A stretch of 33,372 nucleotides of DNA, taken from Telmatospirillum sp. Lineage in GTDB: Bacteria > Pseudomonadota > Alphaproteobacteria > Rhodospirillales > Magnetospirillaceae. How positions within the stretch are numbered: position 1 is the first letter of the stretch; each line of letters starts with the position of its first letter. The stretch spans positions 1-33,372 of the forward strand of contig JARLJB010000079.1 of assembly GCA_031291415.1 (NCBI GenBank), read 5' to 3'. The position numbers were made by a program, and so were the translations under genes. The notes below the pieces were generated by a model that searched no databases, was not told the origin of the DNA, and saw only the letters and a program-made list of their open reading frames with translations. Positions 12,676 to 33,343 of the stretch are shown piece after piece.

Positions 12676-12828
12676 TGTTCTGACACATTCAGATGATTCC
12701 GAAGTTCCACCCCACCCCAACCCCTCCCCATCAAGGGGAGGGGCCAAAGAGCAACGGCTCCCTCCCCCTTGTGGGGAGGGCTGGGGTGGGGGAATTGACG
12801 GGATTCATGCGTTTGCGTCGGAACACTA
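12673..12828. repeat. palindromic repeat, copy A (long imperfect hairpin)
   Basis: The core (about 12707-12792) is a C/G-rich inverted repeat with arms built from CCCCACCCC, CCCCTCCCC and AAGGGGAGGGG blocks. Outer sequence also pairs: TAGTGTTCTGAC at 12673-12684 matches the complement of GTCGGAACACTA ending at 12828 with one mismatch, and the bases between are partly complementary. The whole 156-base unit could fold into one hairpin or be a small non-autonomous mobile element. It starts on the stop codon of the acyl-CoA dehydrogenase gene and ends 25 bases before the thioesterase start. Related copies are at 29324-29411, 29761-29798 and 31702-31786. Confidence 0.7.
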
Positions 12829-30575: not shown

Positions 30576-31685
30576 ATGACCACCAAGAAGCTGTTCATTC
30601 TCGCTGGCGACGGTATCGGTCCGGAAGTCATGGCGCAGGTGCAGCGGGTCATCGACTGGATGGCCAAGAAGCGTCATATCGCCTTCGACGTCGCTGAGGG
30701 ACTGATCGGCGGTGCTTCCTACGACCGGTTCGGCCATCCGCTGACCGACGAGACGATGCAGGACATCTTCGCCGCCGACGCCGTTCTGCTGGGGGCGGTC
30801 GGTGGTCCGAAATGGGACAGCCTGCCCTTCGAGTTGAAGCCGGAGCGCGGGTTGCTGCGACTGAGAAAGGACCTCGAACTGTTCGCCAACCTGCGCCCGG
30901 CCTTCGTCTTCGACGCGCTGGTGGATGCCTCGAGCCTGAAGCCCGAACTGGTCAAGGGGCTGGACATCATGATCGTCCGCGAACTGACCGGCGGAGTCTA
31001 TTTCGGTCAGCCGCGCGGCATCGAGACGCTGCCCAACGGCGAGCGCCGCGGCGTCAATACGCAGGTCTATACCACGAGCGAGATCGTCCGCATCGCCGAC
31101 GTCGCCTTCGATTTGGCCAAGAAACGGCACAATCGGGTGCATTCGGTCGAAAAAGCCAATGTCATGGAATCTGGCGTGCTCTGGCGCGAGGAAGTGCAGA
31201 AGCTTCATGACGCCAAGTTCCCCGGCATCGAATTGCAGCACATGTATGCCGATAACTGCGCCATGCAGTTGGTCCGCGCTCCCAAGCAGTTCGATGTCAT
31301 CGTCACCGACAATCTGTTCGGCGACATTCTTTCCGATTGCGCCGCCATGCTGACTGGCAGCCTTGGCATGCTGCCGTCGGCTAGCCTGGGGGCGGCCGAC
31401 GCCAACGGGCATCGCAAGGCCGTTTACGAACCGGTGCATGGGTCGGCTCCCGATATTGCCGGCAAGGACATCGCCAATCCGCTGGCCACTCTTTTGTCCT
31501 TCGCCATGATGCTACGCTACAGCTTCGATATGATGGACGAGGCGGAGCTTCTGGAGCGGGCGGTGAAGAACGTGCTCGATGGCGGCCTCAGGACCGGCGA
31601 TATCATGCAGACGGGCAAAGCCAAGGTGTCGACCACGGTCATGGGCGAAAGCATCGTCCGCGAGATGGACAAGCTGGCCGGCTGA
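30576..31685 (+). CDS. leuB: 3-isopropylmalate dehydrogenase
   Basis: This 369-residue NAD-dependent enzyme oxidises and decarboxylates 3-isopropylmalate to 2-ketoisocaproate, the next step after LeuCD. Visible are [57 protein letters not shown], the catalytic Tyr/Lys and Asp regions ([38 protein letters not shown]) and [23 protein letters not shown] precedes ATG 30576 at ten bases; an open frame upstream to 30504 is not needed. The 121-base spacer after leuD shows no clear signal. The palindromic repeat copy D starts 17 bases after the stop. Confidence 0.96.
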
Positions 31686-31701
31686 GGATTGGGGTTGCGC
31701 A

Positions 31702-31786
31702 CCACCCCCACCCCAGCCCTCCCCACAAGAGGGAGGGAGCTGTGTCATTTCTCCCTCCCCTTGATGGGGAGGGCTGGGGTGGGGGG
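31702..31786. repeat. palindromic repeat, copy D
   Basis: C/G-rich inverted repeat with arms of about 37 bases (31702-31739 and 31751-31786) and an 11-base loop. Arm blocks CCCCACCCCAGCCCTCCCC are shared with copy A. It lies between leuB and the asd leader. It has no T tract, so it probably does not terminate leuB transcription by itself. Confidence 0.8.
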
Positions 31787-31872
31787 CGCGAACGCCGTTG
31801 CCTCTGGCGCTTTCCCCTTGCCTTCGGGAAGGCACTCAGGTAATGCTCTTTGCCCGACGGAAGGGGTGACCG

Positions 31873-31983
31873 ATGTCGCTATGCGTTTCCAGCTTTGATC
31901 TGCTGGCCGTGCCCACCAGGGCTGCGGACGCCCCCGTTGTTTTCACGACGACCACCCTCACTACCAAGAAAACCAAGGCTTGA
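31873..31983 (+). CDS. Thr/Lys-rich leader peptide of asd attenuator
   Basis: This is a 36-codon open frame with a very strong ribosome site (GGAAGGGG, six bases before ATG 31873). Residues 25-35 read TTTTLTTKKTK: seven Thr and three Lys in eleven codons. It then ends in Ala and TGA, three bases before the first strand of an alternative RNA structure. Such a run of regulatory amino-acid codons next to mutually exclusive hairpins is the hallmark of transcription attenuation. The downstream gene asd leads to lysine, threonine and methionine, so Thr and Lys are exactly the expected end-product codons. The peptide itself is probably unstable and without function. The N-terminal half (MSLCVSSFDLLAVPTRAADA) has no recognised feature. 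Confidence 0.8.
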   Translation: MSLCVSSFDLLAVPTRAADAPVVFTTTTLTTKKTKA

Positions 31984-32046
31984 AGCGCGGGCTGGTTGAC
32001 GTTTGTTTCGACAAAAGGCCCGCGGGAGCAACCCGGCGGGCCTTTT
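31971..32046 (+). promoter_or_regulatory. attenuator RNA elements upstream of asd
   Basis: Segment 1, AACCA (31971-31975, inside Lys-Thr-Lys codons 33-35), can pair with TGGTT at 31993-31997. Segment 2, CGCGGGC (31986-31992), can pair perfectly with GCCCGCG (32018-32024), forming an antiterminator. That latter stretch is also the 5-prime strand of the terminator stem. A ribosome stalled on Thr or Lys codons would mask segment 1, free segment 2 and prevent termination. The layout fits the classic trp/thr attenuation model; the pairing is read by eye and was not folded computationally. Confidence 0.75.
32013..32046 (+). terminator. intrinsic terminator of the asd attenuator
   Basis: AAAAGGCCCGC plus GGG (32013-32026) pairs with CCC, a bulged G and GCGGGCCTTTT (32032-32046) around the loop AGCAA. 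The T tract TTTTCGTTT follows. It lies 57 bases upstream of the asd ATG, so it would abort transcription before asd when the leader is fully translated. Confidence 0.85.
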
Positions 32047-32103
32047 CGTTTGTAAGGGGTCTCGGGGGGGCGGAACGGCGGCCTCTACTGTGGAGTTGAA
32101 GAG

Positions 32104-33123
32104 ATGGGTTACAAGGTTGCGGTGATCGGTGCCACGGGCAATGTGGGCCGCGAGATGCTTCAGATCCTGGCCGAACGGGACTTTCCCGCCGACGAGGTGA
32201 TCGCGCTGGCGTCGGAACGATCCGTCGGGCGTGAGCTGTCTTATGGCGACGACAAGATCGTCAAGGTCAGGGACCTGGCGACATTCGACTTCAAGGGCGT
32301 CGATATCGCGCTGTCCTCACCGGGCGCCAAGGTGTCGGCGCAATACAGCCCGCGCGCCGCCGCCGCCGGTTGCGTGGTGATCGACAACACCTCGCATTTC
32401 CGCATGGAACCCGACGTGCCGCTCGTCGTTCCCGAGGTCAATCCCAAGGCGATCGCCGGCTACAAGAAGCGGGGCATCATCGCCAACCCGAACTGTTCGA
32501 CCATCCAGATGGTGGTGGCCTTGAAGCCGCTGCACGATCTGGCGCGAATCAAGCGCGTGGTTGTTTCGACCTACCAGTCGGTGTCGGGCGCCGGCAAGGA
32601 CGCCATGGACGAGCTGTTCAACCAGACCAGGGCGATCTATGTGAACGATCCGGTCAAGCCGGAATGCTTCACCAAACAGATTGCCTTCAACGTCATCCCG
32701 CACATCGATGTCTTCATGGATGACGGGGCGACCAAGGAAGTATGGAAGATGGCGGTCGAGACCTGCAAAATCCTCGATCCCGACATCGCCGTGCACGCCA
32801 CTTGCGTGCGCGTTCCGGTGTTCGTCTCGCATGGCGAGGCGGTCAATGTCGAATTCGAAAACCCGATGAGCGAAGTGGCGGCACGCGCCGCCTGGTCGCA
32901 TGCTCCCGGCGTCATCGTCGTCGATCACCGGGCCAACGAGGGCTATGTGACGCCGATCGAGGCGACCGGCGAGGATGCCGTCTATGTCAGTCGGATCCGC
33001 AAGGACCCGACCATCAAGAACGGCCTGTCCTTCTGGTGCGTGGCCGACAATCTGCGCAAGGGCGCCGCGCTCAACGCCGTGCAGATCGCCGAGGTCCTGG
33101 CCAGCGACTATTTGAAGAAGTGA
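32104..33123 (+). CDS. asd: aspartate-semialdehyde dehydrogenase
   Basis: This 339-residue NADPH enzyme reduces aspartyl phosphate to aspartate semialdehyde, the branch-point precursor of lysine (and diaminopimelate for the cell wall), threonine and methionine. The N-terminal motif VAVIGATGNVGREMLQIL binds NADP. The catalytic Cys131 lies in NPNCSTIQMV, and VSTYQSVSGAGKDAMDEL and FVSHGEAVNVEF follow. The C-terminal FWCVADNLRKGAALNAVQIAE is typical. ATG 32104 follows GGAG at eight bases. It is preceded by an apparent Thr/Lys attenuator, so expression is probably repressed when both charged tRNAs are abundant. It ends the leu-asd cluster. Confidence 0.96.
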   Translation: MGYKVAVIGATGNVGREMLQILAERDFPADEVIALASERSVGRELSYGDDKIVKVRDLATFDFKGVDIALSSPGAKVSAQYSPRAAAAGCVVIDNTSHFRMEPDVPLVVPEVNPKAIAGYKKRGIIANPNCSTIQMVVALKPLHDLARIKRVVVSTYQSVSGAGKDAMDELFNQTRAIYVNDPVKPECFTKQIAFNVIPHIDVFMDDGATKEVWKMAVETCKILDPDIAVHATCVRVPVFVSHGEAVNVEFENPMSEVAARAAWSHAPGVIVVDHRANEGYVTPIEATGEDAVYVSRIRKDPTIKNGLSFWCVADNLRKGAALNAVQIAEVLASDYLKK

Positions 33124-33255: not shown

Positions 33256-33294
33256 GACATCCCTGACAGGTGTTCGGAGACATCCCTGACAGGT
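33256..33294. repeat. tandem 16-bp direct repeats, possible IS end
   Basis: GACATCCCTGACAGGT occurs exactly twice, at 33256-33271 and 33279-33294, 23 bases apart. Such duplicated motifs are common at the ends of insertion sequences, where they are transposase binding sites, and I recall similar sequences at IS ends. No transposase gene is in the window, and the sequence ends 78 bases later. Confidence 0.45.
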
Positions 33295-33303
33295 TGATGT
33301 GAT

Positions 33304-33343
33304 GCTTCACCGTCGCGCAGGTTAACCTGCGCGACGGTGAAGC
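33304..33343. repeat. 40-bp perfect palindrome at right edge
   Basis: The 40 bases centred on GTTAAC (33321-33326) are a perfect palindrome with no loop: GCTTCACCGTCGCGCAGGTT followed by its exact complement. No T tract follows on either strand. It could be a mobile-element end, a regulatory palindrome of a gene outside the window, or an assembly artefact at a contig edge. Confidence 0.7.

Follow-up and report, generated by a model that had tools for sequence, protein, structure and literature searches.

What controls the expression of asd in Telmatospirillum sp.? The window, i.e. the whole stretch of 33,372 nucleotides that was analysed, holds on its forward strand an open frame (32104..33123) which we take to be asd, encoding aspartate-semialdehyde dehydrogenase, the presumed controlled gene. 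An earlier note on this DNA had proposed that a combined threonine and lysine attenuator lies in front of it, and the upstream sequence was followed up in the window, among its relatives and in the literature.

Leader frame and alternative pairings upstream of asd

Between the end of leuB (31685) and asd, the forward strand carries a short Thr/Lys-rich frame of 36 codons plus TGA (31873..31983, stop at 31981-31983). Its translation is MSLCVSSFDLLAVPTRAADAPVVFTTTTLTTKKTKA*, with the C-terminal end TTTTLTTKKTKA. Six nucleotides 5' of the ATG lies the Shine-Dalgarno-like sequence GGAAGGGG (31859..31866), the candidate ribosome-binding site of a short and probably translatable leader, as expected of an attenuator. 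The codons for TTTTLTTKKTK (31945..31977), enriched in threonine and lysine, would be the regulatory ones, and the run matches two amino acids in which the pathway through asd ends. A sigma-70-like promoter was not found within 31600-32200, and the window had no match at gathering score to any Rfam family, the threonine leader, the lysine riboswitch and the T box included.

Two mutually exclusive RNA pairings follow on the same strand. Directly 3' of the leader stop, segment 2 (31984..31997) is the putative 5' strand of an antiterminator; its core (31986-31992) starts at the third base past the stop and can form 7 bp without a mismatch with 32018-32024 within segment 3 (32009..32026). Segment 3 is common to this antiterminator (2:3) and to a terminator-like hairpin (3:4, 32013..32046), whose 14-nt arms (32013-32026/32033-32046) are paired at 13 of 14 positions (93 %). 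An inverted-repeat search recovered the hairpin together with a longer alternative, 31986-32001/32009-32024. The simple terminator scan gave no site at 32013-32046; four T's are part of the stem, and the sequence after it is just CGTTTG. Judged by its sequence, the hairpin nevertheless qualifies as a putative intrinsic terminator before the structural gene, though the scan was silent.

Taken alone, the folds of the window were only mildly unusual (z -1.49 and -1.94). The window sequence folded as 2:3 (-21.0 kcal/mol) when the RNA was cut before arm 4 of the terminator, and as the 3:4 terminator (-26.6 kcal/mol) when segment 2 was masked to imitate a ribosome sitting on the stop codon. At equilibrium the full-length RNA favoured the terminator, even with an early stall, thus the switch would have to be kinetic, with the antiterminator acting by forming first. 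The earlier note, which had described the 36-codon frame with its Shine-Dalgarno site and terminal Thr/Lys run as well as two incompatible pairings, and had proposed a comparison of their folding energies, is borne out on these points. Its 1:2 pairing, said to overlap the Lys/Thr codons, stood only in part: AACCA (31971-31975) and TGGTT (31993-31997) are both present, but their pairing did not exceed shuffles, with 28 of 100 shuffles of the leader codons equally good in the window and 4 of 41 leaders at 5 of 100 or better. In one clade the corresponding pair reads AACCGGC/GCCGGTT, and in another leader (L139) AACTGGC/GCCAGTT, one instance of compensation, recognised by eye.

Recurrence of the Thr/Lys leader at asd genes

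Upstream regions of asd were collected from a set of relatives (61 genomes, the window's own included), 80 named loci, a class-wide sample and stretches taken by place. Ten loci that duplicated the last 180 upstream bases of another and four with less than 180 nt upstream were dropped, leaving 294 regions; two of these contained other letters and were excluded from the shuffle test, which thus covered 292. Of the short frames whose end lies 40 to 380 bases upstream of asd, the best one was scored by the number of Thr and Lys residues in its last 14 codons, and a strong leader was defined by a score of at least 7. Forty-six of the 292 regions had a strong leader; among 5840 dinucleotide shuffles 5 reached this score, and among the 292 reverse strands a single one did. 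An earlier set had presented 36 of 133 regions versus 2 of 5320 shuffles and 1 of 133 reverse strands. Given this recurrence, the element is far above chance despite the weak folds of the window alone.

Thr plus Lys was the top residue pair at the cut-off (43 of 226 loci), followed by Ala plus Thr with 33; all 15 residue pairs listed in this comparison include Thr. Among the last 14 codons of each of the 46 strong leaders were at least one Lys and at least four Thr codons, which establishes the Thr-plus-Lys specificity proposed for the window as real. Thr made up 43.5 % and Lys 17.4 % of these residues, versus 7.6 % and 7.5 % in low-scoring frames. Methionine and isoleucine, further products fed by asd, were not enriched in the 46 leaders (0.9 % and 2.8 % versus 3.1 % and 4.3 % in low-scoring frames). 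A Shine-Dalgarno match of at least 4 nt near some in-frame start was present in 43 of the 46, by a lax test without a control.

The third codon positions of the leader were the most variable. In two clades compared gapless from the stop, they had about twice as many differences as first or second positions, with 2.28, 1.94 and 4.72 differences per pair at positions 1, 2 and 3 in one clade and 1.45, 1.94 and 3.62 in the other. Pairwise codon differences over 12 codons were 123 synonymous and 123 non-synonymous in one clade, 223 and 317 in the other; as they are not mainly synonymous, the peptide itself seems to drift while Thr and Lys stay common. The leader might in addition act in trans, as a peptide or as a terminated RNA; rnTrpL and peTrpL of Sinorhizobium, as presented in the available parts of the reports (PMC7298713; PMC10117765), are a precedent and the point in favour of this. 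Read by eye, the N-terminal part of the leader is not conserved beyond close relatives, which argues against a function of the peptide, and we give such trans action a very small chance.

Counted by genomes, the strong leader preceded asd in 46 of 214, representing 15 of 152 families; an asd match was present in 392 genomes, of which these 214 had their upstream DNA read, each family contributing one or a few, and the frequencies are not unbiased, because families were thinly sampled and nearer asd genes were listed first. A strong leader was present in 28 of 35 genomes of the window's own family, the other seven being below the cut-off; it was present in 8 of 24 other families of the same order, with 16 below, and in 6 of 127 other families of the class. 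Absence of the leader frame or of its codon run in close relatives had been named as an observation that would count against the attenuator; both recur there. The set of relatives had an asd match in 60 of 61 genomes, and the asd upstream region of one genome of that set (G059) is not included in the analysis. The window's family includes Magnetospirillum sp. UT-4, present as a genome (G008) and as a named record (L031) with identical upstream DNA. None of the named loci outside the family reached the cut-off; a Magnetospira MAG (L041) and a Rhodospirillaceae MAG (L036) scored 6 and have the layout of segment 2 and hairpin. A further Thr/Lys leader with a terminator-like hairpin (L161) is located about 320 bases before asd, outside the position limits. 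L009 and L012 kept a similar hairpin without an adjoining Thr/Lys frame. In five leaderless loci (L024, L118, L123, L133 and L138) an upstream frame that looks like the end of leuB stops only 41-95 bases before asd.

Individual loci had further peculiarities. Where the leader would be, L009 has two inverted repeats, noticed by eye, which may have destroyed it. L026 carries a hairpin with 25-nt arms between attenuator and asd. A genome listed under the same genus (G002/L111) has a size of only 0.9 Mb and an AT-rich asd upstream region without the leader; it is possibly a reduced, host-dependent relative.

The association with asd was also seen from the side of the RNA. A model of the element (R1) was built from an alignment without any asd sequence. 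In the window's own genome it gave one strong match, the window itself (E 7.6e-20); the next matches had E values of 0.0127, on the opposite strand at the same place, and 0.0214. Across 385 genomes of the class seven matches exceeded 44 bits. Two were the window and G013, the latter differing little from a sequence used in training; the remaining five all lay upstream of asd, in families other than the window's. At E 0.001 or better, 56 of the 385 genomes of the class sample had a match. Thirty of these loci were fetched: asd was beside the match in 10, no asd was shown in 20, and the 12 of the latter that were inspected look like the ends of other genes followed by hairpins. R1 was discarded as a general detector and is useful at high scores only, since below 44 bits most fetched matches were not at asd.

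These many weaker matches to hairpins without asd, together with the end of leuB just upstream of the leader, would fit an ordinary terminator of the leuB transcript accompanied by a short frame arisen by chance. Such a coincidence does not account for the return of the Thr/Lys frame at 46 asd genes versus 5 of 5840 shuffles, for the drift in third codon positions, or for the adjacency of segment 2 and stop in the listed leaders. We consider it to have next to no probability, and both the chance frame and the plain leuB terminator were rejected on grounds of conservation (46 of 214 genomes). Other genes of the pathway lacked the leader: upstream of 8 hom, 19 DHDPS and 8 aspartokinase (lysC) loci of eight genomes no Thr/Lys leader of at least 7 of 14 was found, the best score being 5; the DHDPS matches include paralogues of uncertain role, and contig ends truncate some of the loci.

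Conservation of the alternative pairings

Forty leaders, drawn from those scoring 6 of 14 or more, were aligned (A1). L082 (not leader-like), L031 (a duplicate), L136 (no hairpin found) and L004 (nearly identical to L003) were removed, and the weaker leaders L019, L026, L121, L129 and L139 were added by hand. In A1, whose statistics lean by this manual selection towards the expected form, four stem pairs of the terminator were changed on both sides; none of 500 shuffles reached four, and slid controls reached 3 pairs with double changes. The 2:3 core was paired in 97.1 % of the cells versus 19-47 % when slid, and showed no column covariation in A1, being nearly invariant. In 34 of 41 leaders, no more than 5 per 100 shuffled versions of segment 2 formed a duplex with segment 3 as good as the native one. 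In L209, among the strongest Thr/Lys leaders, there was no convincing 2:3 pairing, with 57 of 100 shuffles as good.

One family (f63) has the core GCGGCC/GGCCGC instead of GCGGGCC/GGCCCGC. Its own pairs (-17.3 to -19.3 kcal/mol) were stronger than the pairs formed when strands were exchanged with other families (means -15.7 and -14.2). Between families other than f63 such an exchange had little cost (on average -22.6 for own and -21.5 for cross pairs), and in f27, f11 and f14 the own pair was not the strongest in the swap table. The alignment of relatives suggested in the earlier note revealed leader, stop position, segment 2 and terminator recurring with diverged codons, and changed stems in some families. 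In the listed leaders no more than a few bases separate segment 2 from the stop codon, and a ribosome that terminates translation would be expected to mask it, given a footprint size taken from general knowledge.

A GC-rich hairpin ending in T's was found by the search routine in 42 of the 46 strong leaders, including the window's; no terminator was found in the other four. The presence of Thr/Lys codons at L279 and L291, where the routine found no terminator, would suit a switch at the level of translation, in which stalling in the leader alters the access to the asd ribosome-binding site and not termination. At L279 (family f95) the Thr/Lys leader TTKPTTKTAKAKTAFVR is followed by GC-rich inverted repeats close to asd without the usual terminator, and this locus is perhaps a translation-level version. 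For the element in general the 42 hairpins speak against such a switch, and in the window the hairpin ends 57 bases before the asd start (32046 to 32104), thus the hairpin itself does not cover that start. We regard translational control as unlikely.

Proposed switch and its relation to known leaders

With high probability the element is a ribosome-mediated transcription attenuator that senses threonine and lysine together and sets the read-through into asd. It is real and conserved, and very probably functional. With an ample supply of both charged tRNAs, the ribosome on the leader would reach the stop at 31981-31983 and cover segment 2; the terminator (32013-32046) could then form, and transcription would stop before asd, near 32046. 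Shortage of Thr-tRNA or Lys-tRNA would stall the ribosome in the TTTTLTTKKTK codons, segment 2 would pair with segment 3 before the 3' arm of the terminator is made, and the polymerase would enter asd. A stall on the earlier Thr/Lys codons is predicted to free segment 2, and a stall on the last Lys codon to cover it in part; this geometry relies on generally known ribosome footprints. Since segment 2 would be left free by a stall on the earlier codons of either kind, either amino acid should open the switch, in the manner of an OR gate.

Leader peptides of this kind have a classical example in thrL of enterobacteria, in which codons for the end products and a choice between antiterminator and terminator control the aspartate pathway. 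The asd element shares these three traits. Unlike thrL, which has Thr plus Ile codons, it uses Thr plus Lys, precedes asd in Alphaproteobacteria and has no Rfam match. Lysine sensing is usually linked to riboswitches; the lysine riboswitch (L box) and the T box also control lysine or aspartate-family genes. From both the asd element differs by its leader frame and by the lack of an Rfam family at gathering score. Very probably it represents a known attenuation principle with an unusual double target, threonine and lysine. If this is true, lysine can be sensed by codon-driven attenuation, and a branched pathway can have two of its end products watched by one leader at the enzyme they share. It would also offer an explanation for the control of asd in Magnetospirillum-like bacteria, and the natural leader variants would be a set for direct tests of the OR logic and of the role of each codon. 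We see about even odds for the wider claim of a class of attenuators with a lysine-codon sensor, widespread in Alphaproteobacteria and so far uncatalogued, that acts as an OR gate on the branch-point enzyme asd. In this reading asd and not aspartokinase would be under translation-dependent control, and the core would have changed in a coordinated way in one other lineage at least.

The spread of the leader, the anatomy of stop, segment 2 and terminator, and the specificity for asd were not found in the open-access literature; Vitreschak et al. 2004, reportedly an earlier survey of proteobacterial attenuators, may contain the leader. Attenuators for His, Leu, Thr and Trp in Rfam, as well as for Ile/Val and Phe, are named in the available text of PMC3766115; they belong to the same mechanism class as the asd element, and none of the specificities listed in that text includes lysine. 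The word asd is absent from the accessible parts of PMC2965389, PMC1273637, PMC3766115 and PMC2573895, and in those of PMC4117421 it denotes the anti-Shine-Dalgarno sequence and not the gene. The closest relative in print is SEP5 of Sinorhizobium meliloti, a small open reading frame that has, towards its 3' end, six Thr and three Lys codons and belongs to the 5'-UTR of what the paper names an aspartate dehydrogenase gene (PMC10117765, in excerpts). According to these excerpts its translation was seen by Ribo-seq and Western blot, it was proposed as a possible leader peptide, and the authors called it in 2023 conserved only in Sinorhizobium. SEP5 resembles the asd leader in its position in a 5'-UTR and its Thr/Lys codons near the 3' end; an antiterminator or terminator is not described in the excerpts, and the 'aspartate dehydrogenase' gene may correspond to asd. 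The dual Thr/Lys codon run has accordingly been noticed at least once, and the idea is not wholly new. The impression that such a leader is little described holds for its spread and anatomy in the open-access literature, and has to be qualified for the Thr/Lys leader frame as such.

Two repeat structures flank the region. Between leuB and the leader, at 31705-31785, lies a 35-nt inverted repeat of 89 % identity between its arms; it looks like a dispersed palindromic repeat, because its core CCCCACCCCAGCCCTCCCC recurs at 12773-12791 on the other strand. At the contig end 3' of asd (33256-33342), GACATCCCTGACAGG occurs twice together with the inverted repeat CTTCACCGTCGCGCAGGTTAACCTGCGCGACGGTGAAG, as read by eye, and this arrangement resembles the border of a mobile element.
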